DNA from: Sipunculus nudus
Taxonomy: Eukaryota; Annelida; Sipuncula; Golfingiida; Sipunculidae
Reading direction: 5' to 3'
NCBI GenBank assembly: GCA_026874595.1
Contig: CM049309.1
Location: forward strand, 71,902,926 to 71,966,925
DNA: 64,000 nt
Shown here: positions 7,540 to 27,125 of the stretch, piece after piece
Layout of the letters: each line of letters begins with the position of its first letter
Position numbering within the stretch: the first letter of the stretch is position 1
Made by a program: the position numbers and the translations under genes
The notes under the pieces: model-generated
What the model was told of the DNA's origin: nothing
The model's database searches: none
What the model saw: the letters and a program-made list of their open reading frames with translations, nothing else

Positions 7540-7573
7540 CACTGTAAAAATGGTGTTTAGGGCCTAAACACAT
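7540..7573 (+). repeat. Left terminal inverted repeat of CACTA element
   Basis: Starts CACTGTAAAAA and continues into GTGTTTAG. It matches the right terminus at 26 of 34 positions. The preceding two bases, TA, are repeated just outside the right end. Confidence 0.85.
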
Positions 7574-8340
7574 TTCTAAACGCCTGATTTGTCTCCACTT
7601 ATACCACACGTTTAGCTGCTACACATGTTTAGATTGCATGTGCTTAGCCCTGAAAGTGTTTACGGATGAGACACGTTTAGCTGTTTATCATGTTCAGGGC
7701 CTAAACACATTCCTAAACGCCTGATTTGTCTCCACTTTTACCACACGTTTAGCTGTTTCACATGTTTAAATTGCATGTGCTTAGCCCTGAAAGTGTTTAC
7801 GGATGAGACACGTTTAGCTGTTTATCATGTTCAAGGCCTAAACACATTCCTAAACGCCTGATTTGTCCCCACTTTTACCACACGTTTAGCTGTTTCACAT
7901 GTTTAAATTGCATGTGCTTAGCCCTGAAAGTGTTTACGGATGAGACACGTTTAGCTGTTTATCATGTTCAGGGCCTAAACACATTCCTAAACGCCTGATT
8001 TGTCTCCACTTTTACCACACGTTTAGCTGTTTCACATGTTTAAATTGCATGTGCTTAGCCCTGAAAGTGTTTACGGATGAGACACGTTTAGCTGTTTATC
8101 ATGTTCAAGGCCTAAACACATTCCTAAACGCCTGATTTGTCTCCACTTTTACCACACGTTTAGCTGTTTCACATGTTTAAATTGCATGTGCTTAGCCCTG
8201 AAAGTGTTTACGGTTGAGACACGTTTAGCTGTTTATCATGTTCAGGGCCTAAACACATTCCTAAACGCCTGATTTGTCCCCACTTTTACCACACGTTTAG
8301 CTGCTAGGCATGTTTAAAACGCACGTGTTTAGCCCTTAAT
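7560..8340. repeat. Sub-terminal tandem array, 137-bp unit
   Basis: Units begin at 7560, 7697, 7834, 7971, 8108 and 8245, an exact 137-bp spacing for five steps, with a partial sixth unit. Each unit carries several CTAAACAC or CGTTTAGC boxes in both orientations. In plant En/Spm, sub-terminal motif arrays are the binding sites for the TNPA protein. By analogy these boxes may bind the element's own SAM protein. The near-identity of units points to recent amplification or homogenisation. Confidence 0.85.
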
Positions 8341-9891
8341 TCATATACACCAGGGATGTATATTATCAAGACTGCCACAGATAAATTACAAAAATCTATA
8401 TTGCCTGCTATTCTACTTTACAGTTTGTTAACAACAGCTAATTTTTAAAATGTTAAAATAATTGAGCAAAAATCATTTTTAGCATACCAAAGAAAAAAAA
8501 TATAAATTGTGCCCAAACTCTTCCACACATCACACCTATCCCCTTCTAGTGCCCACCATTAGCCACTAGCCTTGCTCATTTGTTAAATACACTGGGTATC
8601 TGAATGTTTACATAACAAATGATTTTACTTTCAAAATAAACATTTATTCAAACAAAAGGTATTTATTAACAAAGGATATGTGAGGTTCCAAGCAGCTTAC
8701 ACAAAATACGGCCTGTAGGCCCAATGCAAACCTGTGTAATGAAATAGTAAGTACACTGCTATTCACTTGTTTCCCCCTACAATATATATTTTTCAAGTTA
8801 ATGTATTTATTTTAACTAGATAAATATCATGAGCACTAAATCTCCTGCCAAATAGGAATGCAAGAAATGTGAACTTTGACTGGTATAATACTAGAGAAAT
8901 TTATCAAAGTTAATAAGAATGCAATGGAAACCCAATAAAGTGAGAATACCCATACACATGCCTTAAACACTAGGTATAGAGGTTGATCAAATGACACTTA
9001 TTGACATACAAGATCACATATGAATTACATAAGTCAAAGTTAAAAGACAATCATTCAATAGTTACTAAAACCTCATCAGCTCAGGAGACCCATACAATAC
9101 ACATGACATTATTATTAGAAGTAGGTATGAGTAAAATGTTTTGAGATAACACCTCACATATGAATTATATTAAAACTGTTAAAAAATAAATCAATTAAAA
9201 AATATGAAAATCATTCAAGTGTAACCAAAACATAACCAGGTAAGAAGATCCATAGACCCTCTTACAATTTTATTTAAAAGTGGACATGAGTTGCACTTTT
9301 TGAGTAATCCCATACATGTCATGTTTGATTTAAATCTTTTTTTAAATCATAAAAAAATAAAAAATCTTTCAAGAATGACCAAAACGTAATTATCATTTCC
9401 ATACAGAGAGCTTCAAAAATATTACTACTAACATATACTAACCTAATACATCTCTTGGCATGTTGCAATAAATGTTGATAAATGTATGCCATGGCACATG
9501 TTACAGCTTCTCAAAGTCAACATAAAAGATAAACTAAGTAATAAGTCCAATAACTAAAACTAAGTCCAATAATTCAACCAAAACACTGCAAGCAGAACCA
9601 TTAAAAAAAATTTTAAAAGAATTATTCTAGAGACAACTCCTGTGTCACGCTAACCAATACAGACCTTATTCTTAACTGGAAAAACATTTTGCAGAACGAC
9701 TCTAGCATGTTTACAGAATATAATCAAGTTTTAGTTTCCTGTGACTGGCCAAAGGTACTGAACCAAATGCATATGAACAAAATTACAGAATCAGTTATAT
9801 GACTTTTTTTAACTGCAGTCATATCCTTGAATACAGATTTACAACATTTACCATGTTTATGCACTGGTGTCCATATGTCATCTAGTGATAC
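8341..9891. other. 3' non-coding flank of transposon genes
   Basis: AT-rich sequence between the sub-terminal array and the stop codon of the SAM protein gene. It should contain the 3' untranslated region and poly(A) site of the minus-strand transcripts. I see no other coding region. Confidence 0.5.
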
Positions 9892-12800
9892 TTAAATTTC
9901 ATTAAATTTCTTTTCAAATTTTATGTACACAGATGACTTGAAGAAAGGATTTTTGGTGTCACAGATCATGTATCTCTGAAGAAAACCCAAAAGTTGATAC
10001 TCCTTTGGGTATGAAAGGTCCCAGGCATAATATGCCCCTATCAAGCAGTAGAGCACCTGAAATAGACACGAGGTGTCTAGTGTAATTTCCATTGTGTCTG
10101 CCACAAGCCAAGCCTGATCAATCCTTGTTCCATCTTTGGTGATGATAACCCTTGGAGGAGACTTTGCAGCACATCCTGTGTCCAAGTCCACTGCCTGCAA
10201 ATTGGTTAAACTTGCATCAGAGCATCGGAAGTAATCTTGAATAAAGGGCTAAACTGTAATATGTGATATACTTGTTTAACAGGGGGTTGATTCTTTTAAG
10301 ATTCTTATGTTATATGACACAAGTTACTTGACTAATTTTTCAAAACACCATGAATTTGGTCTTTGCGTAAGTAAACTTTTATCCATGTTAGTCAAGCCAG
10401 TTTTGTAATCCTAGCATTCATAGCTAAAACTTTCTCATCTGGCCCAGGCATTCCATTTGGTCAAAATGAATTTCATAGTCAGTGTACTAGTAACTGTCCA
10501 TTTACACAGTTTCAACTTGTTGATTTAAAAGTTTTCACCTTTTACATCTTAAGTTGGCATACCACTGGTAAATGTGAAAGATCATTCCTATGGCAATTTT
10601 GTTTGATGGATCTGTCCGTTGCACAATTTGTTTTGCTTAAAAGTAGTTTTATACACTTGTATACAAGGATCAACAGTCACCATTATTGATTTTGATACAA
10701 AATCTGACCATACATCATTTGTTTAAATATGTCCCTTAGTTGAGTTTTGTTGTGCTCTCAAGGATAAATGTGGCAGTGCATGCCAAGGCACCAGCCATGG
10801 TATCCCTTGACTTTTCTCAGGGGACGAAAAACATTACATATTATTTCCACTTGATCTGCTCATAACTGAATATAAAAAAAGGTCAGCTTTTGCAGTTATT
10901 CCATTCTTACAACAATCTTCCATACTGCTGAAGATATGATGACATATTTTACCCATCCATGGCCATCATATGCTTTTATCATTTCGGGTAGAATCAGTAA
11001 GCTTAGTATGAGCAGAATCATGAAGAATAAAGTTTTACAGCAAAATAGCCTATTTTCAAATGTTTTATTAAGAACATGGGCAATCAGCTGAAAATATTTT
11101 TGTGGTTTTAGAATTAATCAAGGATATTAAGTTTTCAGGTTTTCCTGGTGATCATAATACTCGACTTCCACACACCAAATATATCTGAAATGCCAGCATA
11201 TGAGGCAACCAGAGACAGTAAATTATATAACTTCTGAACATAAATATCCCACTTAAAGTTCACATCAAGTGTTCATCAAATATTTAAACTTTTAAAAACA
11301 TATTTTGTCTCCATGACAATACTGATAAACAATAAATAATCAAGGTTGTTCTGTAGATAATGACACCTAACTCCAAGAGGCGAACTTGTTCAAGCAATAA
11401 GTAGCAGTGAGCCAGTACTTACATCAACCACTTCGATTGCTGGCTTCATCTTGTTCTTGAAGCTCAATCTTTTTTGGAGGGCAAGAATTACTTCAAGCTC
11501 TTCCTGTTCCTCATTATACATGTCATCCTGAAAAAAAGACAATTGCGATTAGCCCAACATTTCACAATAATGAAAAATAAAACCATCTTTTTTATGTGTT
11601 AGATCCAACCAAAACTGAAAATACAAGATAAATGATGTAATTTTACAAAAATATAACCCTAAAATAAGGTATAGGAAAGGATACCAAAAACACCATTTAA
11701 TAAACTCTGGGCCCTAAACTTTATTACCACAGATGTATAAGCTTTTTCCATTTATTGTACACAGGTTCTATAAATACACTGATGATGATAGAGTCAAGAA
11801 TTTCTATAAAAACTGTTCTTTTTTAGAATATTAAATTCCCTTTCTAGTGTTTTCTCCCTTTAAACACTGGAATTTCAAAAATGGGTTTTACCTCTTTCTC
11901 CAATTCAGTCATTGAAATGGTCACATCCAGGATGTTGGTTAGTTTGTCCATCATTTCGTTGTATGATGCTTTTGTATCTTCCATTTGAAAGAGGCTTTCA
12001 AACTCCAGTACAATCTGAGAAAGGATTGAAGCTTTTTATAGAATGTTTGCACCTTCTTTTAAAGGCATTTAAAGGGAGTGACTGTTATTACATTAGCAAA
12101 AGTAGTCATAGATGCTTTAATTCAACATATCACACTAAGTTTAACACAAACATACTACTACATCAGGGTAAAGGAAAGCAGGCAATCTCATAGACAAGTT
12201 TCAGTATTGACATGACTTAAATATAAAATAAAAGACCCATAGTTTAGTGTGCTCAGTTGAATTGAATATTTGTATAAAATCCAAGCATATGGTAAAGGAT
12301 CAACAGTTATTATATATTTTCTATATCCAGGTCACTGAAATATTTAAGTACAACTATTTCATATACAAGAATTACCTTATCTCACTTCTCATTTGACCAC
12401 ATAAAGACAACACATTTGGTGTTGAATGGTGTTACTTTGGAGCCCCATAGCTAAAAGAATATGAGTAACAGAGACCTAATTTCAGGTTTCCAAGAAGACA
12501 TATCATGGGTCTCCCAGTATGTCAGAAGATAATAGGTCCAGTCATTACCTTTGTATCCTGTTAACAGATGACCACTTTTCAAGGTCTCGAAAAAATACAG
12601 GTAAAAAACTGTAAATAGTCAAAAAAATAAAGGTGGTGCCACCAGTCTGCAGAACCTGATGAAACATCCCATGACCAATTTCCATGCTAAAAATCATAAT
12701 GATCCATGCAATACATGTTGAGATATTTAAGGTTTGTATTTAATTTTCCATTATCCTGGGGGTTACTTTGGAACACCATAGGTAAAAGAATATGAGTAAC

Positions 12801-15800
12801 AGAGACCTAATTTCAGGTTTCCAAGAAGACATATCATGGGCCTCCCAGTAGGATTAGTCGTAAACTGTGTGTCCTGTTAACAGATGACTGCATTTTTCAA
12901 AGTCTCAAAAATACAGAAAAAAAATGGTAAAAAATTGAAAAAAATAGATGGTGCCACCAGTCTGCAGAAACTGATGATACATCCCATGACCAGTATCCTT
13001 GCTAAAAATCATGATGATCCATGCATTAGTTGTTGAGATATTTGAGGTTTTGTGTTAAATTTTCCATTATTCTGGGGGGTACTTCAGAGCCCACTAGCTT
13101 GGAGGATATAGATCAAAGTGACCGAATTTCAGGTTTGCAAGGGGAATTTTCATGGTCCTCTCAGAATGTCAAATTACAGGATTCTAGTTCCAGCATTTGT
13201 GGTTTGTGCCCTGTTAATGGACAGAGGCCCATTGCCAGACAGACAACTGACAAAGAGGGTTTGCTATAGCTCAGATGACTTACAGTCAGCTAAGCTAAAA
13301 ATTGCTTAGGCCCACAAAAGGTTATTTTTCACCTACCTTTTTTCAGAAACAAGTGCAGGGAGCCAATTTTTTACCTTTTTATTACTTCTTTTTTTTAAAT
13401 TCAATAACCAACCTAATTTTTTAGCTTTAATTTTTAATTTTAAGATGTTAACTGATTAAATACTTACATTTACATACTGTTAAATCAACAATACGTACAG
13501 GTAAATAATAAGTCACAGTACAAAATTAGCAAAATTTTTTGTGCTGATTTTAAATAACTTAAAAAATTTACAAAATTAATCTTATTATTTATACAGAATT
13601 GAATTTTGAATAAATAAAATTATATCCCTGAACAAAAATCTATAGCTATAGCTATTCATAGGTTAGGTGACTAAATATCTTCTGGATTTTTTACACATTG
13701 CATTATGTTCAGGCCCATAACCTCTAGAAATTACATAATACTGACCTGGTTCCTGGTATTTTCAAAGGAAAAATATAGAGGAGTATGTATATACAATTTG
13801 ATAAAAAAACGGATCAGTGGTTTTGACAACAGGCAGTTTTTAGTGTAACAATGAGTTTTTAATGGAAAAATTCAGGTTTCTAATTTATATCTCAAAGGAA
13901 TAACGTCGTAACGAAAACGCAGTTTTCAGTATGGAAGAAGATTCTGGGGACATTTATGCCAAATTTTTTATCTGTAGGTCCAATGGTTTCAAAACTTGCC
14001 AGTGTAACAGACGCAGACCAAGACTAAGGCTGAGATGACTTATAGTCAGCTGAGCTAAGAAAATGTCTTACTGGGTTGAGATCAAAATTGGTAAAATTCT
14101 ACTGCAAATCAAAATATAAATTTCTGTTACAGGGGGTCAAAACTGACATGTGCCATGACTGAGAAGACAACCCTTATAATTTGACTTTACTTACAAAATC
14201 TGGCATTTTCAGAAGTGGAAACTGGTTCACAATTTTTTGTACTGCCCCATCTTCCAGGTTTCTTATAACAAGCCTCCTCTCACTGAAAGAGCTGCGCATA
14301 AGCTTCTTTAGCTGGGGCTTGTCTTTTCTTGGAAGAGCTTTCTTAATGCCCTCTTGACACTCCTCAAAAGTCATAGATGTTCCTGATAAAGATACACCGC
14401 ATTACAAATTGGTGCTATTCAACCCATCTATTCTGTTACAGAAGTGATTGAGATCATATAATAGCTCCTCATTGGTACAGTATATGATTTGGTGATGGAT
14501 AAACAAGGTTGGATCATTCCAGTGCAGTGAAATAAAATTGATGATTAAAAATAGTGAATATCAAACACATTTGCTGCTCTTTTCTATCTAATATAGTGCT
14601 AAGCATTGCTTAAAGATTCATCAAATCCATCTGATGAAATAAAATGCAAGTTTTGTTCCAGAAATTATATTTAGCTAAGCCTGACCTGTTGCCTGGATGT
14701 TCAACCTTGTGACCCCACAATCTAAAAGCTTATATCTTGAGCTGAGTAATAGTTAAACTACACATGAGGTCTGGCCAAATTTATAGCTCCCATATAAATG
14801 AAGTTTTGACCTAAACAATTAGTTCTAAAAGAAATTATGAAAAATAAATTAAGAGATTGAAAAAGAAATAATTAAATGAAATACCTTATCAAATTAATTA
14901 TTTTAATATTTTCAAATTACATGTTACATACCTGGTGCAACTGTTGCCAATTCAGTACATCGTCTACTCTTCTTACTGGTACGAGATTGGCTGGGGTTTT
15001 CCCTTCCCTTGTTCAGACGCCGTTTCCGTCGCCATCTGATGTTTCTTAGTTTTTGGGAGAGTTTTGCAGTGATGAATGACTGCGATATTAAAAAACTTCT
15101 ATTTTAAACATCAGTTAGTTTTTATAAAAGCAAAATGATTCCATTTCTCTGTCTCTGCATGATCATGTGTATACATGTTTTGAACAGCAAAGCAGTTAAT
15201 TTGCAGCACTGTTGCATGTAATTGATGGAAAATAGCATGGGATTTTGCACCAGCATGAATTCTTGTGGAGTGCATGTAACACCACAAAAAGGAAATATTA
15301 TAGTGTGTTTGGTTGTAAAAATAATAAATAAAAATATAAATATATTGTAAAAAATAGAAATAATAGTTTTGTAGCTATGCTTTATAATACTGAAACATAC
15401 CTTAAATGGTGTCAAGTTGTCTTTAAGTCATTAAGTTTGTGAGCATTATTTTGTGTGCAACTGACTTGTCAGTAACTGTCATCAAATACAAAAAAGTAAA
15501 ACATGGCTCACCCATGGATTTCGACCACTTGTGAAGGTAATCCCTGGATATTCTGACACTAAGGCACGCCCATAATTCTCATACTCCAACTTTGTTGAGA
15601 TGTCACATGTGGCAATGATATGGTATGCTGTCTCCTCAATAAATGCGTCAAACTCTTCCAGGATTTTGCCTTGGTCAAGGAGAGTTTTAATCCTGGTGCT
15701 GTATTGAGGCAGGTTAGGTTTACCCACAGGATTATTTTCAGTAAGAAGCTGGGTTGTTTCTTTGTTTGGAATTACATCCTCCATCTCAGATGCACCTTCT

Positions 15801-18800
15801 GACAGGACTTGCTCCTCTGTTGTAACACTGCTGCCAGCCACTGATTCTTGGGTGTTGCTGCCACCTTTGGGACTAATGTGCTAAACAAGGACAAATTTAA
15901 AAGATTTATAACAGTAGGTTTCTAATTTTTTCTCAAATTGTAATTTAACTTCATACTTAATATGAATAATATTTATAGTATTAATAATAATAATTATTAT
16001 TAATAATAATATATAAAATTTACAGGGCCTTATTCATAATTCCTCACAGTAATTTTAAAAGATTTTTAAGAGGATGTTAGCAAACTGATCACACTGTTAT
16101 CATATCTTAAGGCATATATATCATTTGTTTCTTTCACACAATTATGATATAGCTTGTTAAAGGCATTTCCTCTAAAAATGTGCTATGAAAAACTAGTGAA
16201 ATCATACATCACATACCTAATTGACTAACTTTTATACACAATATTTTTCAACTAAAACAACCATTAAAAATCAACTTACATCTTTTAGGCTCAGCAGTAC
16301 CATGATTTTCCTCACATTACCTATTTTCCCAGGTAACATTGCCTTCAGATCATTCTCTTTTATATGCCTTAAGGTGAAGCCATCCACAAAATTATCTGTA
16401 AATCAAAATTAATGGCAGTTAAAGCTGTTTATGTATAATTTAATTTAGGTCTATAACTGCAGCTGTGATCTAGCTTTTTCTACTTTCTCCACTCAATCTT
16501 TGTTATGAAACTCCTCAATGTCAACCCTTCGGATGTGCATGTTTGCTCTGGAATTTTCAGGAATGATGGCAAGTGTGTCCTTAAAGGTGTCATTTTCCAT
16601 CTCTTCCCAGATGTCCTAAGAAATCTGACATTAATTAGTGAAGGAGCTGCATATTAGGAAATGCATATTTATGCATATAATTACCCTGCTGGCTTTACCG
16701 ATGGATTGAAAAGGGACACAACATGTCATTTAGAAATATATGTAGGCTGAAAAACCTGTAGCTCTTACACTACTGAGTTTTGATGTAGCTCTTACACTGC
16801 AAGTTTTGATATTATATTTCAACATATTGTCAAACACTGTGGATATAGCATGTTTGCCAAGTGAATAAATTCTACAGCTTTCTTCAAAATAACAAGAAAA
16901 ACTCGGTGCCCTGACCAGAAATAAATCACCTGTCCAAATCATTCACTTGGATAATTATAACAATATATTTTTTTAAAAGTCTGGAAACTCTGACAGTTCA
17001 AGTAAGAAATATCATATTCAATGTTTAACCATATGTACTAACCATAATTTGATGGCACAGCTCTCTATGGAAACCACACTTCATCCAAATTCTGCAACAT
17101 GACATAATGCTGTTCCTTGCATTTGTGGTAAATCTGTGGCCAAACATATTTCAGCTCTTCATATTTTGTGACTTTGATATCATTTGTGCAAACAATCTCA
17201 AAGGCATTCAGCTTGGGATTAAAGTCGACAATGTTCAACATTTTGCATACAAAATATTTTTCTTCACCAAAAATGACTATGGTATCAATCCTGAGCAGCC
17301 CTGGCTCAAGTTCAAATGTATCCACAATAACTGATCCTGACTTATAGATTAAGCCATTGATTTTGACACATGGTGTCAACATGACTTCACAGTTTAGATA
17401 TATATGCAGGTTTTCACAGTTAATTTGACTGAGGAATTTTTCCTTGAATTCAAGTGATTCAACAGACACAATATGCCCTTCTGCCACTTCATCACCCTGA
17501 CTTAGGTACACTTCAGACCTTGAACCTTTAGGACCAAGCATTTGTAAACACATCCATCTCTGATGGTACTCTGAGAGACTTTTTGGAATGTTTTTAAACT
17601 GAACCATCTTTGTAGCTTGAAGAATCCATTTTTTGCTTCGAATCTCATGCACCAGTGCATTCGAAGAGGTCCAAAATGTAGGAGCTGTGTTGGAAAATGG
17701 ACCAAGTAATGCAATTTTGGTTTGTAACTTTCCTCTGGGTACAGCTTTATGAATGTACTGGAATATGCTGCTATGAGGTATTCCAATGATGAAATAGTGC
17801 GTTCTGATGCCACAGGGGATAATGAAAGGAGCGTTATTTGTAGGCAACGCAGGAAGTTTATCCAGTTTTCGTCTTCATCTGGAATTTTGTCTGCTAAAAT
17901 GAAGGGTAATGTTGTCACCAAATTTTTCATTGAAGCAGCTGACTGGGCAAATGTTTTGCCATTAATGAGCCACTTTCTGTCAATGATTTGTGGTTTGTCT
18001 TTAGCTTCATTTTCTGAGTAAGAAAAGTTCAGTATCCGAGCATTTAACTCATCTAGTGAAATATACTGTTTTTGTATAATCACAACACTAAACAAACACC
18101 GAAGTTCATCCCGGAGTACACCCTCAAGCAGAATATGCATGGGGTCATGCAGCAAACACTTTGTTATGGAAAAACCAGGCACGTCATGTAAAATGCTTTT
18201 CCCGTTTATTCCCCATTGTTTTGACCAATGTGTATATACATGTCTTCTTACTGACTTCTTTCAAATGATCTACTCGATCCCTGTGTTCAAATTCATCCCT
18301 CACTGTGCACTCCCTTGCAAACTTAATATCACTCATATTCTCTCGCCTCACTTCACATGACCTGCAAGGTAAATGTGCACCACCTACACCTTCTTTAAAA
18401 CCACCTATCATCTGAGAGGCAAGTGTATCTGCCAGCACAAAGAATAATAGTCCATGCCATTTCTTTTTTCCTGTTCCCGGAACATCAATATCAGCACCAT
18501 CATATAGAATTTGAAGATCTTGTGTGAATGATTCTAGTAACCTGTCAACTCCAAATTCTTTCAAATCCTTTGTTTTGGCTATTGCAAGCAATTGCACTGA
18601 AGACAGCTTACTGCGGTACTCTGCGGGCACATTGAGTAGAAGCCAATAAAATGCAGTTAGCTTATGTTTTTTGCGATGGCTCCCAATAGGATTTACAAGT
18701 TCAAAATCGTCTGTATACAGTGCAAACAGCAGTGCATCACTGTGTTCTGTTAAATATGGGTGGGTTTTGAAATAATATCCGTCATATATATCCTCCATTA

Positions 18801-19693
18801 GGCCTGAAGCATTATGATGATCTTTTCCCAAGCATACCTGGACTTCAGGCATACCCAAAAGAGCTTTCAACTGTTCTAAAAATGGTACACAGTAACCAAA
18901 AACACTTTTCTTTTTCCAAATATACCGGCCCTTTCTTTTGATACGGATCATCCTCTCCCCTAAAGTAATTTCTTCAGGCTGCACATAACCAAAGCCTGTT
19001 TTAAACATCTTTTCTTGTTTGTACTTTGTCTCTAGTCCTTCAAACAGGGGAGCATCAAAGTAATGTGAAAAATCAATTGCTAAACCAGAATTTTCTGCTA
19101 CAATTTTCTGTTTGATAGATTCAAGCTTTTCTTGAAACAACAACTGTGTAGACTGTAATACATCATCCACTGCCTTTTGGCTCATCCTGTGACCAGCCCT
19201 TAGTTTAAGTATATAAGCTGCATCATTTAACTTAGACAAGTCATTTTTATGTACAGGCTGATCCTCTTCTTCATGAAATTGTACATCACAATCACTGTCA
19301 CCCTGATCTGAGGCACAATTTGTAAGTACAGGTTCACTGAAATGCTTCCTTTGACAGTGCATCTTGAACGATGTGTAATTCTTGAAAGAAGCCCCACAAC
19401 CACTATATGAGCAATGAACAATAAACTGAGGTGCATTTCGATGTCTTTTTAGAAGATGATGCAAAAATTTCTTGTGGGATTCAGCAAAATATGGACACAT
19501 ACTGCAACAAATGTCCATTTTCATGGATAATCTGTAAAAAAAAAAAGAAAAAACTAAACAAAACAAGGACTGAAAGAGTATATTTACCTGAAAAGACCTC
19601 TGCAACATCAGATGGTATGCCGCATTTTACTAAAACATCTTTCACATCATCAGGAGTGCTCGTGTCTTCAATATTTGCAAACAGAGTTTCCAT
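9892..19693 (-). CDS. SAM-domain protein of the transposon (TNPA-like), 8 coding exons
   Basis: Coding exons on the minus strand: 19693-19588, 16395-16280, 15880-15512, 15079-14932, 14382-14195, 12014-11892, 11527-11423 and 10194-9892. Each has an AG acceptor and GT donor. The phases match at every junction and no stop interrupts the 485 codons. Exons 1 and 2 together form one SAM domain (about residues 12-74): VKCGIPSDVAEVFS joins NFVDGFTLRHIKENDLKAML and then KIGNVRKIMVLLSLKD. Residues 75-197 are an acidic linker followed by a conserved-looking segment ending GRNPW. Residues 198-247 hold a strongly basic stretch (LRNIRWRRKRRL and SKKSRR), a likely nuclear or DNA-binding region. The last exon is a separate module (AYYAWDLSYPKEYQLL) that I cannot name. 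SAM domains mediate oligomerisation or RNA/DNA contacts. A TNPA-like role in binding the sub-terminal repeats is inference. The ATG at 19691-19693 sits in a good context, 13 bases after the exon acceptor. Confidence 0.85.
12420..13300 (+). repeat. Dispersed repeat R, two and a half units inside transposon intron
   Basis: Repeated phrases such as GTAACAGAGACCTAATTTCA, GGTGCCACCAGTCTGCAG and GTGTCCTGTTAACAGATGA occur twice, at about 12,420-12,720 and 12,765-13,040, with a third partial unit to 13,300. The tail carries the GCTCAGATGACTTACAGTCA motif. The same family forms the larger run at 42.4-43.9 kb. It lies in the intron between exons 14195 and 12014, so it probably inserted into the transposon. 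Confidence 0.7.
13960..14065 (+). repeat. Dispersed repeat R, tail fragment
   Basis: Carries the diagnostic GAGATGACTTATAGTCAGCT tail of the dispersed repeat and a weakly matching stretch before it. It sits just below exon 14195-14382 of the SAM protein gene. Confidence 0.5.
16493..16615 (-). CDS. Probable 3' terminal exon of the transposase transcript
   Basis: A CTTAG acceptor at 16616-16620 opens a 40-codon frame starting DIWEEMENDTFKDTLAI and ending in TGA. It cannot join the SAM exon at 19588, because that phase gives an early stop. It can join in phase to an ATG|GTTAGT donor near 17,040, reached from the transposase exon in a shifted frame (HRELCHQIM then DIWEEME). It is therefore best read as the C-terminus of a transposase splice form. 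The exact junction is uncertain. Confidence 0.4.
   Translation of the reverse strand, partial: DIWEEMENDTFKDTLAIIPENSRANMHIRRVDIEEFHNKD
17065..19524 (-). pseudogene. CACTA-type transposase with two C2H2 fingers (TNPD-like), two frameshifts
   Basis: The frame lies in the intron that splits the SAM domain. A long poly-pyrimidine tract and ACAG precede its exon at 19531; the first in-frame ATG is at 19522-19524. Two fingers are visible: C7-C10-H23-H28 and C38-C43-H56-H61. A DDE-like core follows: GKKKWHG then FFVLADTLASQMIGGF, with a candidate catalytic Asp at about residue 366 (18427-18429), and the CRSC motif behind it. Next come LLHDPMHILLEGVL and EYHQRWMCLQMLGPKG. This order is typical of transposase-derived proteins of En/Spm type. 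The frame breaks near 18,240-18,262 (between DHLKEVS and HVYTHWSKQWGIN) and near 17,600 (between KLQRW and FKNIPKSL). Each break is a single-base shift. About 820 residues in all. Either this copy is dead or the assembly has indels. Confidence 0.75.
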
Positions 19694-20749
19694 GTTTGTT
19701 TATGATCTGTGAATAAAATAAAAAGTATACCAGATTTAAAGATTCAAAGACAAGGCTTGAAACACTTCTGAAATATTTGGTTCATAAGTTATAGGTTTTC
19801 CATAACAGCACAAACTTGTACAGGTGACCCTGGGTAACAATGCCATATATGCTGTCCTTAGGGTTCATACACATAAAGCCATACACAAGTTATCTGACCT
19901 ACCCTACATCAGGCAGTGACCCTGAAACTTTTCTTGATAGTTTATAAATTTCATTTGATAAATTTCAACTAGAAAACTGACGTATCAGGAAGGGCCCTGC
20001 AAATACATTCACTTTGAGTAAGAGTTTTTTGGTATATGGGAAGAATATTTTGAATATAGGAAGAACAATAGATAGCATATTCAGATGAAGCACAAAATGA
20101 TACATGTAAAGCTGTGAAAATAGGAATAAATGACCAATCATGTTGAAAGGCAGCAACAGAAATATATTAAGAAATTGTATATATATATTATTTTTTTATG
20201 AATATCCCTGAGTATCAGCTTTACCTGTGCAAGTGGAGCCAGAGTTGCTTGTAGCTGAGCCTATAGATGCACTGTGTTGTGTAAATTGACTACATATTTA
20301 TATCAATGTATATTTGCTGATGGTCACTGTAATAGGCCCAGATTCTATAATGCAGGACGTGGAGACAGATATGTCCAAACATGGTTTAAATGAGATGAAT
20401 TTTGTCAACACCAAAGTGTGAGTAAAGTTGACATGTGACCCTGACCCTGACATAAGACCATAAACCCCAAAACTGAAAAAAACCTTATTCCTTGTGTCAT
20501 AGGTATTTTATATTTAAAGTTTGAATCCAATTAATCAGTTGAAACAGGAGCTACTGTCTGAAATTGAATTTGTGGACAGACAGACCTTATCAAGTGATAA
20601 AACTATGTTTTACTATGTAACTTGGAAAAAAAATAGAACCTAAGACCTCATTTCAGGTTTCCTTGCAGATAACATGTTGACCAGATCTGTCCTGATGTGA
20701 AGCTGGAGAAAACAATTATCATGTTTCCCTTTGCTAAAGGTGGATCAAC

Positions 20750-22343
20750 CAGGGTTTCCGCGACCCTAAAATTTAGGCCGGTAAACGGACTCTTTCCCCC
20801 GCGAGGGTCATTAAAAATTCCCCCAGCCAAAGAGGCTGAGAGAGCTTAATAATAACTCAAGCACGAGTGTCGTGCTGTCTTCATCATCTTCAAACTATGT
20901 ATCAGATTTGCGCGCCCCTGTCGCCTGTTCGGTGCCACTCAGTCACTGTCCTGACAATGTCTGAAAAACTTTGAAAAGAATAGATCAGTAAAAAGATTCC
21001 TTATACATGTACAACATCTGCGCAAATAGTTTTTATGCTGTCTCGCCATTTAATTTTCTGGAGAAGGTAATCAGTTGTGTAACCATAGGTTGTGGACGTA
21101 CGATGTCGGCCCTGAACATGCGCTACCGGCCAAAGGTGTGATATTATAATTAATCGTTCGACAACCGTACATTCAGTCTCTGTAGTCAGTAAAAATGATA
21201 AACCTATCGATAATGGAAATTAAATTTGTGTTTTATTTGGTTGTGATGATATATTTTTCAAAATTTGAAGAAGGTGAATCATTTTCATCATGCAGTCGCT
21301 GTGGACATCGCTGCTTTGACATATTAACATACCGCGGGCCTTGCAGCGAGGTCACAATGCAAAGGGCTTTTGTCTTGACCTTACCGAACAAATTTCAAAA
21401 GGCCGGAGCGTAGTGAATGCGCTGTTCTATGTGCGAATATTCATGAGGGAATTCCCTATTGAAATAAAAACTTGTGGCAAATGCAGCCAATAGCGTCCGA
21501 GGAAGTTCTGAATAATTCAACTGAATGTCACACGTGCAGAAACAGGTCGTGCACGTCTCGGACACGATCGCAATCAGGGATTTCGCAGAATCAAATGTTG
21601 GGCCTATAACAAGTAGGCCTAACACACTAAATTTCAAGGATATTGCACGAATTTTAAGTAAAAGCATGCGACAGCAATATATATTTTTTGTCATTTAACT
21701 TTGAGAAAAGCAGCCGGCCGTTGAATGCGTTGCAGCAGCCGACAAAACGCCGGCTGTAGTGCGGGCCCATCGTGAACACCCGGTCAGCGGAGATCACGCG
21801 GTAAGCACCAGGCGCGGGTAATCTGGGAGCGCGGGAAACCGTTAGTCCCTGGAGGGGTATGTTGAATTGGTCAATAGCTTGGGGATACACAGGAAGCGTG
21901 CACGATATAATAAAAACAAACAATGTGGACATCGCTTGGGCAGAACAGGCCCTATATTTATTATATTTATCTTCGTCAATTCGGTTTGCGCAAGTTTCCA
22001 AAACAGATGTTTAGGCGAATCCTTTCCAATGAATAGTTAAGTAAAAGGCCAGTTTCTGGGCCCACATATGTCAGGGAGACACGACTTGTACGTGCATGCT
22101 GCATCACATGAAGGCCTAACGAATATTTTACTGTTTTACTGGTATATTTTTACGCCTTCCATGGGCGTGATACTAAGCTGAAAAAGAACATCAGAAACGT
22201 TGTTTTCAACCTTGATTTTGTAAAATTTCCACACCGTGGGAGGGGGGAACCCACACCCTCCCCTCGCTTCGCCCCCACGCTAGGTTCACTCCCTGTCACA
22301 AAGTAAAAACGGACACACTTTTTCAACCCTGGCGGAAACCCTG
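20750..22343. mobile_element. hAT-like element nested in the CACTA transposon
   Basis: The left end reads CAGGGTTTCCGC and the right end is its exact inverse, GCGGAAACCCTG. TCAAC flanks both ends directly (20745-20749 and 22344-22348), a perfect 5-bp target duplication. Ends starting CAGGG fit the hAT group; most hAT elements make 8-bp duplications but a 5-bp subgroup is known. The 1,594-bp body lacks a transposase frame, so this is a non-autonomous copy. It is richer in G and C than its surroundings around 21,280-21,850. A minus-strand open frame (21932-21654) encodes a hydrophobic start (MSTLFVFIISC) and ends after CCNAFNGRLL; I assign it no function. Confidence 0.7.
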
Positions 22344-23575
22344 TCAACATCAGAAAAGAATGATTTACACTGACCAATGACCTTGACCCCAAAATCAAAA
22401 GGTATCTTCAGTGCTTAAGTTTCCTGTTGTGTATACTCTAAATGTAGCTGTTCAATTTAGAGATAATCATTCCTTCCAAGCAGCAATCTCAAAACCTTTC
22501 CATAATATTTCTAAAGCTAAATATTTACTTAGAGTTGATCACAATATAAGGGGATACCCCCCCCCCCCCACACACACACACAAGGGAAGCACACAGTGGT
22601 ATACCCCCAATATATGGAATATCTGGGGGATCCACATTCCATAAATGCCTAATATACCCTTCCCAACTCTCCTCCACCTTTTTCTGCAAAATCACATTTC
22701 CTCAGTAATTAACACAGTAGCTGATCCCTCAATTTTGTAAAGAACACTAGGAAAATTTGATTTTATTTTCCCATGCACACCCTGCCATGATTACAGCATT
22801 ACATGATAACAATCGGTTTTACATAATTATTTGAATAAGGGTAGTAATAGATGAACAGACCAGTAGTCGGAAGCACAGATCAGGTCTTGGGGTACATTCA
22901 GTATTTATCTGTGATTCCAGCATGGTGTCTTCTGTAGTTGGTGTAAGTAAGTAGCCAATTCCAAATGACATATTTCTAAATGACAAATGTATGTCTCAGT
23001 CAGCCAGTTACACTGACTCCAATTAGTGTTTCAGTTAAAGACTTCATTTAAGTGCCATATGGTTATAGTCATGTGTGCACACTTTGTTTCCTTTTTTTTA
23101 TAGCTCATTTTCACATACAAACTTTTACTTGTTTTTAGTTTCTACCATTTCTACCCATGTAGAAAGTATATCTACCATATTGATAGTAACTACCTTGTTG
23201 TTACCTGGTGTAAAAGGTCAGATTTTACCCCCTGCCTAATTTACACCCAGGTATAATTTAGCTTAGGTCAATTTATTTAAACCACCTCAGGACAGTTTAT
23301 ACCCCTCAGCATATAGTACCATTGTTAATTATATAAAAAAAATGTGTGCAATTACATTTAATTCATTTAATGTTTCAATCATCTTTTGGTTTTTTTTTTG
23401 GTGGCCTTAACCGCCCCCATTTTTTAATGCTAACTTATCTATTTCTTAATCTAAGTATTTAAATCTTCATTTAAAAGAATTTAAAAGTTCCATTTTGGTT
23501 TGGGACTACTTGTCAGAGTGCCAGCACTTGCTTCCTTTCAGTTTATTCTTATATCCTGGTGTCACCTATGCAAGA

Positions 23576-23795
23576 TGTCTACCGCACCTGCAGGTCCTGG
23601 GTGTAATCATCCCCATTGCAGGGTCATCACACCGAGGAACCTCCCAAAGACGCACTCGTATGTGAGTAAAACCTGGCTGTGAGGCACAGCCTTCCCATTG
23701 AGCCTGCAGAAAGCTTACCCTGGGTTGGGGTCGACCATGAAGAATCTGACCGCCTCGGCCGAGATTTGAACACACGACCTCCCAGCTTTGACATT
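23576..23795 (-). repeat. tRNA-type SINE, copy 1
   Basis: On the minus strand it contains a B-box-like GTTCAAATCTC followed by a body that matches the copy at 60.7 kb. Shared stretches include ACTCACA.ACGA.TGCG, then GGT.TC.TGGTGT.ATGAC and GACCTGCAGG. A polymerase III B box with a conserved central body is the structure of tRNA-derived SINEs. It lies inside the CACTA transposon. Confidence 0.65.
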
Positions 23796-24199
23796 CATCT
23801 TTTGATGTTTCTACACACCATTCATGAGAAAAACTTATAATATCAGTACTGAGGTACAGCAAGTGTAGAAATAACCATTTTGGTTATTTATTTAACTTGA
23901 CCAATATGTATACAGATTTATAGTAGCATTACTTACAATTAATTTTTAATTTATAAACTGTCTTGTTCTTGATAGCTAGCATTTATTTAAAAAGTGGGTA
24001 TTATTTTTGTAGGTCTACATTAATTGGGAGTCTCAAATCAATTTTATAATGTGATTTATGAGATTCAGAAGACAATAAATACTTATATGTATAGTAATTC
24101 AATGAGTCTATACACATATATACATTTTGCAGAGCGATATCATCCACATGAGACTCATTAGTTACATTATTTTTTTTAAACTGACAGAAGATGAACCAT

Positions 24200-24233
24200 T
24201 ATGTACAATTACTCCCCCCCCCCCCCCCCCCCC
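24200..24233. repeat. Long C run
   Basis: A run of about 20 C residues ends near 24,233 in otherwise AT-rich DNA. Many such G/C homopolymers occur in the window (for example 26,276-26,296, 26,485-26,499, 40,790-40,808 and 41,131-41,154). They are likely hot spots for length error. Confidence 0.8.
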
Positions 24234-24289
24234 GGACTTCATCTATAGTGCTCCTCCAATATATTTTACTAAAAATGTTGTATGTTTTA

Positions 24290-24975
24290 ATTTAATTTAA
24301 TTTTTCAAAGGAACAAAGCCACAGTGACCTAGTTTTGGGTTTGGTAGGAGAACTTAGGAACATATAACTGTATGTCAAGTTTTGTATTTGTAATTTTAAA
24401 ATGTGCTTGTCTAACAGATGGACAGATGGATAATGGTAGAGGACCAAAACTGTAGCTCAGATGACTTTTAGTCAGCTGACCTATCAAGAAAAGCTACCCA
24501 AGATCAAAGGGCATGGTAATGTTCACTCATGGCAATCAAAGCCTAGTTTATTGAGATATTGGAGCTTTTGTATAAAATTTTAATTTTTACTCAAAATGGA
24601 ATAATCACCACAATTTTTATCTTTCTTTAAAAGAGGTGGATGGCTAAACTCTGCTAAACTTTGCATGATGGCAGTCTGTCTTAAACATCAACTTGAGCAA
24701 CATTATTATATTTGATGAACAAACAGATATTTGTTCAATAGCCTTGATCACTGGCAAGCATTTGTGTGAGTGCTACAAAATGTTTTTTGCCCATACTAGG
24801 TCACAATGACCTAAATTGGGCATCTAGGTCTGAGATTTCCCGGGAACCCTGGATGTGGAGTAAGAAATTACTAGATCAGACAGTCGATATGTTACCTGTT
24901 AAATGAGTTGGCCACCAAGATGACAGACAAAGAGAATCACTTTAGCTCAGGTAACTTGAAGTCAGCCGAGTTGAT
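24290..24975 (+). repeat. Dispersed repeat R, two diverged copies
   Basis: Copies at about 24,290-24,485 and 24,780-24,975. Both run from a CA(C)AGTGACCTA box, through a CTAACAGATGGACAGA-type or equivalent stretch, to the GCTCAGATGACTTTTAGTCA tail. They are more diverged than the copies at 42-44 kb. Confidence 0.5.
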
Positions 24976-25014
24976 AATGATACAATATAATAAAAACATA
25001 ATATATGAATAATA

Positions 25015-25017
<3 letters not shown>

Positions 25018-25054
<37 letters not shown>
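25018..25054. repeat. AT microsatellite
   Basis: Pure AT dinucleotide repeat. A second one lies at about 25,383-25,424. Confidence 0.9.
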
Positions 25055-25058
<4 letters not shown>

Positions 25059-25260
25059 CAGTGAAACCCCGGGCTATGGACACCCCTCTGGGATGGACAC
25101 CCCACCTAACGGGCATTTTTGGGACAATCGAGCATTTTTACTCTTTTAAGAACAACTCTGGGGGAGACACCCCGCTATTCAGGACAACAGACACTTTTTG
25201 TCAGCCTGATGCCTAAAATCATCCCGGCTAACCATATAAAACCGTAGTGTTTTGATGCCG
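25059..25260. repeat. Possible pogo/Tigger-like MITE fragment
   Basis: The start CAGTGAAACCCCGGGCTATG followed by repeated GGACACCCC units resembles pogo-type terminal repeats (CAGTG.AACC). I cannot find a convincing inverse end nearby, so it may be truncated or another repeat type. Confidence 0.3.
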
Positions 25261-25375
25261 TTCCTGGGTCACAGTGTTCAATACATCATTGTGGAGCTGT
25301 CATAAGTTGATGGAAAAAATTAATGCATTATTCACTACCAACCAATTTTGTGCACACTATATGAATGCCATAAAG

Positions 25376-25417
<42 letters not shown>

Positions 25418-25911
25418 TATATTTTAAAAGAAAATCCACACCGTGCACACCCTCCCCTCCCCCTCGGGAGTAATTAATATTACAGAAGCGGTTCCAAGTT
25501 TATTTAGGGGCTTCAGACAAAATTTTCCCGCCTGGACCCCCCTTTTTTAGACCTGAGGCTGAGGACCTTTTTTTTTTAGGATTTTCATTTGTCCTCCTGG
25601 GTTGGACCCCCCTTTTCCTAAATCCTGGATCCGCCCCTGAAATATGTAGGCAGAATTGGCCAAGCAGACCAAATGACCAGTTCAGCAGTTGAAATGATCG
25701 TATCGGGTCAGAACAAGGGTGACTGAATGACTAGTCAAGTACAGTATCAAGGTAGAAAAATGACCTGAATCCATCTGGTGAACAATGCACCCAGTTCTGG
25801 AGTTGAGAACAACTTAATAAAATCCTCGCTTCCCTCTGTCAGTGCGATTAGTCTCAATATTCTGCACAAACAATTTGTAACAGCAAATGACAGGAAGAAC
25901 AATATACTTAC

Positions 25912-26050
25912 CAATACATGAAGAAAGAAATTTAGAATGCACCGAGTAGAAATGGTAGGCCTACTTCCGCTCTGATCAACAACTGATGCCGACTTCTCAC
26001 ACTGAATCCGAAAGGCGCGGGGTCGTCAGCAGCAACAACCAATCAGCACT
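25912..26050 (-). other. Candidate non-coding first exon of the transposon genes
   Basis: On the minus strand a strong donor, TTG|GTAAGTAT, lies at 25911-25906, about 140 bases downstream of a TATA-like box. The span has no long frame. A transcript starting here would splice across about 6.2 kb to the acceptor at 19706, which sits just upstream of the SAM protein ATG. A non-coding first exon near one end is usual in En/Spm elements. The link is inferred from signals only. Confidence 0.35.
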
Positions 26051-26079
26051 GCCCACGGTGACGACACCAGCCTGACTGT

Positions 26080-26087
26080 TATTTATA
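26080..26087 (-). promoter_or_regulatory. Candidate TATA box
   Basis: The minus strand reads GGTTATAAATAACAG. It lies about 1 kb inside the right end of the CACTA element, in a locally GC-rich patch, upstream of the candidate first exon. The box is nearly palindromic and a CCAAT lies at 26039-26043 on the + strand, so firing in the other direction is also possible. Confidence 0.35.
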
Positions 26088-26204
26088 ACCGCCCGTCTGC
26101 CCGCGTGCACTTGTACTTAAAAGGTTCTAAATGCGAAACAATTGTAAAACATAAAAGTAGATACATTATGATAGGCCTACGTAACATGCCACGCTGTTGG
26201 CACT

Positions 26205-26310
26205 AAGGTTTTAATTTTACCCCCCCCCTCCCTTCCGCCACCGGGCCTATTAAATTAATACCCACGGTGGCGGAAGGGGGGGGGGGGGGGGGGGGGTTAA
26301 AATTGATAAT
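26205..26310. repeat. Palindromic hairpin with C/G runs
   Basis: A left arm with AATTTTA, a C run and TTCCGCCACC is mirrored by GGTGGCGGAA, a G run and TTAAAATT, around a short AT centre. It would form a strong hairpin of about 40 bp per arm. It sits inside the right part of the transposon. Confidence 0.7.
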
Positions 26311-26639
26311 TAATTTTATTTTTTATTTTTTTTTCGTTTATTTTTTTTTGCCGGACAAAACTCTCATATATTATTTGCTTAACAAATAAAAACCGATTCT
26401 ACTACCAGAAGCAACAGGATTTTGAAAAGAGAGGTGTGGGGGTGTCAAACTCAGGTCCTCTATATAGCTCGTCCGGGGAAAGGGGGGGGGGGGGGGGGGA
26501 GTTAGGAGTCTAGGTGGCAAATTTGGTATTAAACATTAAAAAAATATATATATTTGGGCTCGATCCCCTGGATCCGCCACTGCACACACATACTCATACA
26601 CAATTATTTTTACACACACATAAATCTATAATAGCCTAT

Positions 26640-27125
26640 ACTTGTTATGCTAAACACATTGCTATATGGATGTATGAATACCGATGTGTTTAAACGCTAA
26701 ACACGTTTAACCTTCAAACGAGCCGCACCATGGTGTTTAGCATTGGAGGTGTTAACTTAACCATGTGCCTTTAATTAACATTAGGCTAAACATTTTGTCA
26801 GACATGTAACGCTGCTAAATGTGTTTTACAAAATGTGTTTATACGCTAAACACGTTTAACCTTAGAACGGGTCGCACCATTGTGTTTAGCAATCGAGGTG
26901 TTTAGCATTTGTGTTTAGCATAACCATTTGCTTTATATAACCCTATATAATTGTTAGGCTAAACATTTTGTCAGACAGGTAACGCTGCTAAACGTGTTTT
27001 GCAATATGACACATTTCGTTTCTAGTGGACCTATATATGTTTTGCTTTAAAACACATTCCTAAACGTTTATAGGATTAAAACATGTTCCAGATGTGCTTA
27101 AATGCTAAACACTGTTTTTAGAGTG
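26640..27125. repeat. Right sub-terminal repeats of CACTA element
   Basis: Many boxes of GTGTTTAGC or GCTAAACAC in both orientations, with two longer related units at about 26,680-26,820 and 26,830-27,000 (both carry CGCTAAACACGTTTAACC and TAGGCTAAACATTTTGTCAG). The box matches those in the left 137-bp array although the unit differs. Confidence 0.8.
27092..27125 (-). repeat. Right terminal inverted repeat of CACTA element
   Basis: Read on the minus strand it starts CACTCTAAAAA then GTGTTTAG. It pairs with the left terminus and is followed by the TA target duplication. Confidence 0.85.

Follow-up and report, generated by a model that had tools for sequence, protein, structure and literature searches.

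The question raised by this locus is how a transposase frame comes to lie inside a gene for a protein with a SAM-like domain, and whether the two form one transposable element. The locus belongs to a 64,000-nucleotide stretch of the Sipunculus nudus genome (GenBank assembly GCA_026874595.1, contig CM049309.1, positions 71,902,926 to 71,966,925, forward strand), hereafter called the window. The answer we consider likely is that the window carries a CACTA/EnSpm element from an animal lineage in which two genes are nested in one unit and served by one transcript, the SAM protein being TNPA-like, and that its family has been mobile recently. The second gene combines an N-terminal SAM-like domain with a basic KL..K.RN.R region; its first coding exon is upstream of the transposase and the others are downstream, all on the same strand.

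The SAM gene spans 19693-9892 on the minus strand in eight exons, with GT-AG borders at every intron, consistent phases and 485 codons without an internal stop. Its parts and those of the transposase are the following.

19708-19707, minus strand: possible acceptor AG upstream of SAM exon 1
19588..19693, minus strand: SAM exon 1 (coding part), first half of the SAM-like domain; donor GTAAAT, phase 1
19531, minus strand: possible acceptor before the transposase, ...TTTTTACAG followed by A
17065..19524, minus strand: zinc-finger, tnp2-like transposase frame in SAM intron 1; ATG at 19524, two frame changes
16280..16395, minus strand: SAM exon 2, second half of the SAM-like domain (gene model, Pfam, profile)
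15512..15880, minus strand: SAM exon 3 (gene model, profile)
14932..15079, minus strand: SAM exon 4 with the basic stretch FITAKLSQKLRNIRWRRKRR (gene model, profile)
14195..14382, minus strand: SAM exon 5 (gene model; counterpart in family F10, tblastn E 5e-5)
11892..12014, minus strand: SAM exon 6 (gene model; DNA retained in the copies on C6 and C13)
11423..11527, minus strand: SAM exon 7 (gene model)
9892..10194, minus strand: SAM exon 8 with the stop codon (gene model)

A preliminary description, made from the letters of the window, had joined 19588 to 16395, and this join holds: the final G of exon 1, directly before GTAAAT, and the AT after TTACAG form one codon, GAT, and the joined exons read continuously as ...VAEVFS-D-NFVDGFTL.... 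Neither exon 1 nor exon 2 alone gave a Pfam domain, and together they scored 18.8 bits for SAM_2 (cut-off 20.5) and 17.6 bits for SAM_1 (cut-off 23); the domain is called SAM-like here, as the curated cut-offs are not reached. When a profile of three SAM sequences (the window and the related families A and F9 of the same genome) was compared with PDB, solved SAM domains came out on top (L3MBTL3, 8y76, E 0.0021); we take 25 of the 27 listed chains to be SAM-containing proteins and the other two to be a ribonucleotide reductase. Profiles built from other families of the genome, with the window excluded, recovered exon 2 (E 0.0011), exon 3 (E 0.0021) and exon 4 (E 2.2e-5) of the window, each as the top match among 2126 six-frame segments, in the correct order and on one strand.

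The transposase frame (ATG at 19524, end at 17065) lies inside the intron that splits the SAM domain, on the same strand, as had been described, and its ATG is 63 nt past the exon 1 donor. The second splice of the preliminary description, from 19588 to 19531, would remove an intron of 56 nt and reads D-Y-P-stop, and so makes no SAM-transposase fusion. The acceptor at 19531 may belong to an upstream exon instead. Because the second half of the SAM domain lies beyond the transposase in the window copy, the sequence assigns this domain to the downstream exons and not to the transposase, and the simplest reading would be one gene that carries the transposase in its early intron. Between the transposase and SAM exon 2, at about 16615-16495 on the minus strand, there is also an acceptor-like site followed by a short open stretch, DIWEEMENDTFKDTLAIIPENSRANMHIRRVDIEEFHNKD, and a stop.

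Both genes are held by a single element of 19,586 bp, which occupies 27125-7540 on the minus strand with TA on both flanks, according to a scan for terminal inverted repeats (TIRs) and a reading of the flanks. Earlier inverted-repeat and TIR searches had missed its ends, which were traced by a DNA search with the right flank and then an end scan. The right end at 7540 is CACTGTAAAAATGG, and scanning with it gave CACTCTAAAAACAG at 27125 on the opposite strand (17 of 20 positions), so that the termini read CACTC... at 27125 and CACTG... at 7540. The features of the element are these.

7540..27125, minus strand: whole CACTA/EnSpm element (TIR scan and flank reading; TA/TA)
27105..27125, minus strand: left TIR CACTCTAAAAACAGTGTTTAG, equal to the right end at 17 of 20 scanned positions
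7540..7560, plus strand: right TIR CACTGTAAAAATGGTGTTTAG, in plus-strand reading (end scan)
26226..27125, minus strand: left subterminal region with eight CTAAACAC, both strands counted (motif count)
7554..8336, minus strand: right subterminal 137-bp tandem repeats, 5.7 copies, the region bearing the CTAAACAC / AAACGTGT motifs
20750..22343, no strand assigned: separate repeat with ends CAGGGTTTCCGC and GCGGAAACCCTG, an insertion in the element's 5' part (DNA search; the 22343 end by eye)

The 8-mer CTAAACAC, counted on both strands, occurs eight times in each of the two terminal 900-bp stretches and is absent from the 17.8 kb between them; the corresponding statistic is 64, against a maximum of 6 among 173 random internal pairs used as controls. 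The Pfam matches of the transposases are weak. A piece of the window transposase scored 13.9 bits for DUF4218 (cut-off 27), the transposase of another related family, B, scored 22.9 bits for Transposase_21 (tnp2; cut-off 28.6), and the family A transposase gave no match to Transposase_21. Because of the CACT termini, the 2-bp target-site duplication, the subterminal motif at both ends and these weak tnp2/DUF4218 matches, the element can itself be placed in the CACTA/EnSpm superfamily. Therefore, the striking parallel that the preliminary description had envisaged, beside an ancient shared design, is not an independent one between unrelated elements.

Searches of the genome (1.43 Gb) point to recent movement. 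At least 21 other places match about 1.4 kb or more of the right flank at 91-99% identity, a lower bound since the best 40 of 255 candidates were scored, and because the copies sharing the right end are so similar, the family of the window element is judged to have moved recently. One copy on C6 (L063 and L065, G000:C6:55097700-55108900) is a deletion derivative, 93.5-98.6% identical to the window element in three main blocks (27125-24564 at 93.5%, 13989-13729 at 98.1% and 13733-7965 at 98.6%). It lacks window 24563-13990, and with it the transposase and SAM exons 1-5, while the DNA of exons 6-8 is retained. Its homology starts exactly at base 27125, and its flanks are TG/TG, provided that the last base of the right end, which differs from that of the window, is counted as element. 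This derivative was probably served in trans. The repeat inserted at 20750-22343 is matched over its scanned part by 17 other genomic places at 93-96%, from the query start to window 20750-20744; we take it to be hAT-like.

The first part of the transposase has at least 93 genomic matches at E up to 0.001, itself included (best 96 of 123 candidates scored). Among the matches listed, the best-scoring other transposases are 36% identical, several with open frames of 811-843 codons. The closest by identity among them is L017 (G000:C7:71824050-71827463), at 54% over 142 residues, a fragment with 8 stops. At L020 on C16 a run of N lies before the transposase, so that the open frame of 2249 codons there is an artefact.

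The same arrangement recurs in relatives. For family A, which includes copies with open frames, homology between two copies, A1 and A2, extends across 15.9 kb and 16.5 kb, respectively, at 98-99% identity in two main blocks; A2 has CACTC/CACTG ends flanked by TA/TA, and in A1 the left end reads TACTC and no clear duplication is seen. The order in family A is SAM exon 1 (some 320 bp in from the left terminus), exon 2 (ENFIDGEAF..., directly preceding the transposase), the transposase, exon 3 (about 1.9 kb past it) and exon 4 with the motif KLSAKIRN. The intron within the SAM domain is of phase 1 and in the same place as that of the window, and the transposase occupies the following intron, of phase 0. 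Family F9 has the same layout; A and F9 are the families in which downstream exons were read. At L024, exon 3 and exon 4 matches lie 16-21 kb further on, on the same strand, and L025, from another branch, has half a SAM domain upstream of its transposase (SAM_1 17.3 bits, cut-off 23). When the family A protein was searched against the genome, 17 of the 67 matches were to SAM exon 2, and a transposase start follows directly on the same strand in 17/17. Twelve of these cases were found via the transposase match list, four via tblastn (L059, L060, L061 and L066) and one is L062; the set is biased by its query to the clade of family A, and window exon 2 is not among it. The two units are thus nested in the relatives and not separate, in line with the preliminary description. 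Because the same gene order recurs in related families, the nested layout is a property of the element rather than an accident of this copy. In L062 (G000:C12:17572300-17574900), a member of family A, only transposase codons 1-34 and 775-797 were detected and SAM exons 1-4 are still matched, as in a natural SAM-only derivative. The pN/pS of family A was not used, since differences were too few and L005 is out of frame along part of its length.

These observations bear on whether a CACTA transposase had simply landed by chance in an intron of an unrelated SAM host gene. The window SAM exons 1-4 have no other genomic match at E 0.001, as would be expected of a single-copy host gene. However, both genes lie within one matched TIR pair with TA/TA flanks, the short stretch from exon 1 to the ATG holds no CACT ends around the transposase, the layout is repeated in related elements, and a deletion derivative that retains the DNA of SAM exons 6-8 has moved as this very element. 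The common TIRs and the relatives rule this explanation out, and we give it practically no credence.

Other families carry a different N-terminal domain. The second gene contains CIDE-N in F10 (44.2 bits) and F8 (41.6 bits; Pfam cut-off 23.5), scores that come from two pieces joined by eye with splice sites unchecked. The CACTA relatives L008, L010 and L011 have a second gene that opens with CIDE-N (in L011 by eye only); because the domain was found as two pieces in L008 and L010, it is probably split by an intron there. Family B has CACTG/CACTG ends, with flanks CA/CA in B1 and TA/TA in B2. The small domain of family B resembles PB1 by eye, and this assignment is not claimed here, with no Pfam PB1 match, 21.1 bits for DUF5537 (cut-off 28.4) and nothing in PDB below E 0.25. 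Downstream of the transposase in L019 and L021 there is a short M-initiated stretch, MEEVEQFLVEKAHFSLEEVKNILPSLEKVGVESVQDL, which is SAM-like by eye and has no Pfam match. A tree of 14 transposases was built from a choice of fetched loci, with pieces projected on the family A protein. In it the window branches by itself, with A, F9, L024, L025, L019 and B forming a group on one side (support 92) and the group that includes F8 and F10 on the other (support 100). Three placements of the transposase relative to the N-terminal domain are therefore seen: in front of it, within it (window only) or behind it. Nesting of the En/Spm type, in which an early intron of the second gene contains the transposase, is present in the window, A and F9 and was not seen in F8, F10 and B.

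Several results weigh against a single nested unit with a TNPA-like SAM protein. The SAM scores of the window and F9 are below the Pfam cut-offs, and that of family A only equals one (SAM_Ste50p, 21.0 of 21). An exon 5 profile from A and F9 found its best match elsewhere in the window (E 0.071), window exon 5 giving E 3.5, and the core of the second protein, for which DNA binding is presumed, has no relative in PDB (best E 0.13). The subterminal motif test did not exceed its control in family A (6, control maximum 6) or in family B (10, control maximum 63). The intron that hosts the transposase varies, being intron 1 in the window and intron 2 in A and F9; SAM exon 2 precedes the transposase in L024, L056, L057, L058, L059, L060, L061 and L066, and a SAM domain split around the transposase is found in the window copy only, with the second half preceding the transposase in the other SAM families examined. 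Both CIDE-N pieces in F8 and F10, like the N-terminal domain of family B, lie downstream of the transposase, so that a shared transcript in these families would need an unseen 5' exon. There is no AG from the SAM donor to the transposase ATG in L056 and L058, and in A and F9 the nearest AG past the donor leaves a too short intron; a choice between alternative acceptors therefore cannot be the common mechanism. Finally, as assembled the window copy is broken, with two frame changes in its transposase, at about 18.2 and 17.6 kb.

The last point is also what would be expected if the SAM gene of the window had been domesticated as a host gene and stayed intact while the transposase decays, its frame being open over 485 codons against two frame changes in the transposase. 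SAMD3-type vertebrate proteins, products of a host gene, have a similar layout, with a SAM N-terminus and similar middle and C-terminal motifs; the comparison serves as a lead only, a single provisional human SAMD3 sequence aligning weakly (20% over 226 aa, E 3e-4; hhalign probability only 1.2%). On the other hand, two lesions in about 2.46 kb of transposase predict about 1.2 in the 1.46 kb of the SAM frame, for which zero is unsurprising (about 0.3), the lesions may be assembly errors, and the 91-99% identity of the copies sharing the right end speaks for recent movement. Domestication is therefore very improbable in our view.

A further alternative is that two neighbouring transposon genes have separate promoters and that the nesting reflects compact packing without alternative processing. 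This would accommodate the missing AG in L056 and L058 and the downstream N-terminal domains of F8, F10 and B, and in the window copy SAM exon 1 is preceded by over 7 kb of element sequence. However, the transposase ATG follows the SAM donor by 63 nt in the window, 29 in A, 19 in F9, 19 in L056, 20 in L058, 33 in L057, 57 in L024 and 81 in L025, which leaves room for a promoter only within the SAM exon or the preceding intron, and order and strand are constant (17/17). We regard two separately driven genes as unlikely, although less so than domestication. A SAM-transposase fusion was rejected as well. In family A the two frames join in phase, yet the gap from donor to acceptor is only 23 nt, and a stop closes the SAM frame ahead of the transposase ATG in F9 (by 1 nt), L056 (10), L058 (11), L057 (24), L024 (36) and L025 (75).

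Under the preferred reading of one nested unit, a single transcript would be driven by one promoter near the left end. Splicing out of the transposase-bearing intron would yield the SAM protein, which may act like maize TNPA by binding the subterminal CTAAACAC/AAACGTGT repeats; SAM-SAM contacts could link both ends of the element, and the protein could regulate the element. When the intron is kept or entered, transposase mRNA would result; in the window an upstream exon may be spliced to the acceptor at 19531 for this purpose. Intron retention is the probable route in A, F9 and the L056/L058 family, where the distance from the donor to the transposase start, or to its nearest acceptor, is no more than 19-23 nt. 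The RNA step that frees the transposase thus probably differs among families.

The target-site duplication of En/Spm is 3 bp long. In the available text on this system, tnpD contains the large open reading frame (ORF) of the intron 1 region and TNPA binds subterminal repeats (PMC2613891). The element resembles maize En/Spm in its CACTA-superfamily termini and in the transposase ORF lying in an early intron of the second gene (PMC2613891, PMC1636069), and by analogy the second protein is expected to bind subterminal repeats. The En/Spm-like nesting with a SAM-like partner that had been proposed earlier is borne out: the window carries one element, and in it, as in families A and F9, an intron of the second gene holds the transposase. 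Unlike in En/Spm, the second protein has a SAM-like N-terminus in the window and a SAM-like or CIDE-N one in related families, and the position of the host intron varies. The duplication of the window element is 2 bp long, against 3 bp in a soybean CACTA element (PMC2613891). This soybean element, Tgmt*, is 20.5 kb long, and its one large gene produces, besides the transcript for the transposase, smaller ones that are alternatively spliced and assigned to a protein presumed to bind the ends; it differs in being of a plant, in its CACTA ends and 3-bp duplication, and the binding protein is not described as SAM in the available text (PMC2613891).

Among animals, SmTRC1 of Schistosoma mansoni was published in 2006 as an alternatively spliced CACTA element, some products of which lack the transposase, with a 2-bp duplication in 7/14 copies (PMC1636069). 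The window element is like SmTRC1 and the animal TRC elements in being an animal CACTA relative with a 2-bp duplication. SmTRC1 differs in its length of 4.5 kb, its CCC termini and its one predicted large ORF, and the accessible part of that paper describes neither a SAM domain nor a gene split around the transposase (PMC1636069). A full-text literature search, covering titles and abstract openings with Repbase and most subscription papers outside its scope, gave no report of SAM or CIDE-N in a CACTA/EnSpm element, a weak negative. In the parts available, one paper it returned concerns the SAM domain of the host protein Asz1, which is unrelated to the element (PMC11760641), and another reports that CIDE-N genes and transposase domains are over-represented in Hydra without linking them to an element (PMC7642931). 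What is already known from the available texts is the nested plan, from En/Spm, and alternative splicing in an animal CACTA element, from 2006 (PMC1636069); what is new relative to these systems, as far as searched, is the SAM (or CIDE-N) partner.

A wider view, which we put forward tentatively and which is more doubtful than not, is that animal EnSpm elements and plant En/Spm both retain one ancestral plan, that of a transposase within an early intron of a gene for an end-binding protein. In the animal elements this protein would then be modular, with a fixed basic core and an exchangeable polymerising N-terminus (SAM, CIDE-N or the by-eye PB1-like fold), filaments over the subterminal repeats would pair the ends or silence the element, and vertebrate SAMD3 would descend from such a protein by domestication.

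The window element and its relatives extend the nested design with two genes, classically known from plant En/Spm, to an animal lineage with recently mobile families, and provide it with a nameable partner protein that has interaction domains. Whether the pair of transposase and end-binding protein, with its shared transcript, predated the split of plants and animals becomes a question that can now be tested. Some SAM-domain gene models in animal genomes may be transposon genes.

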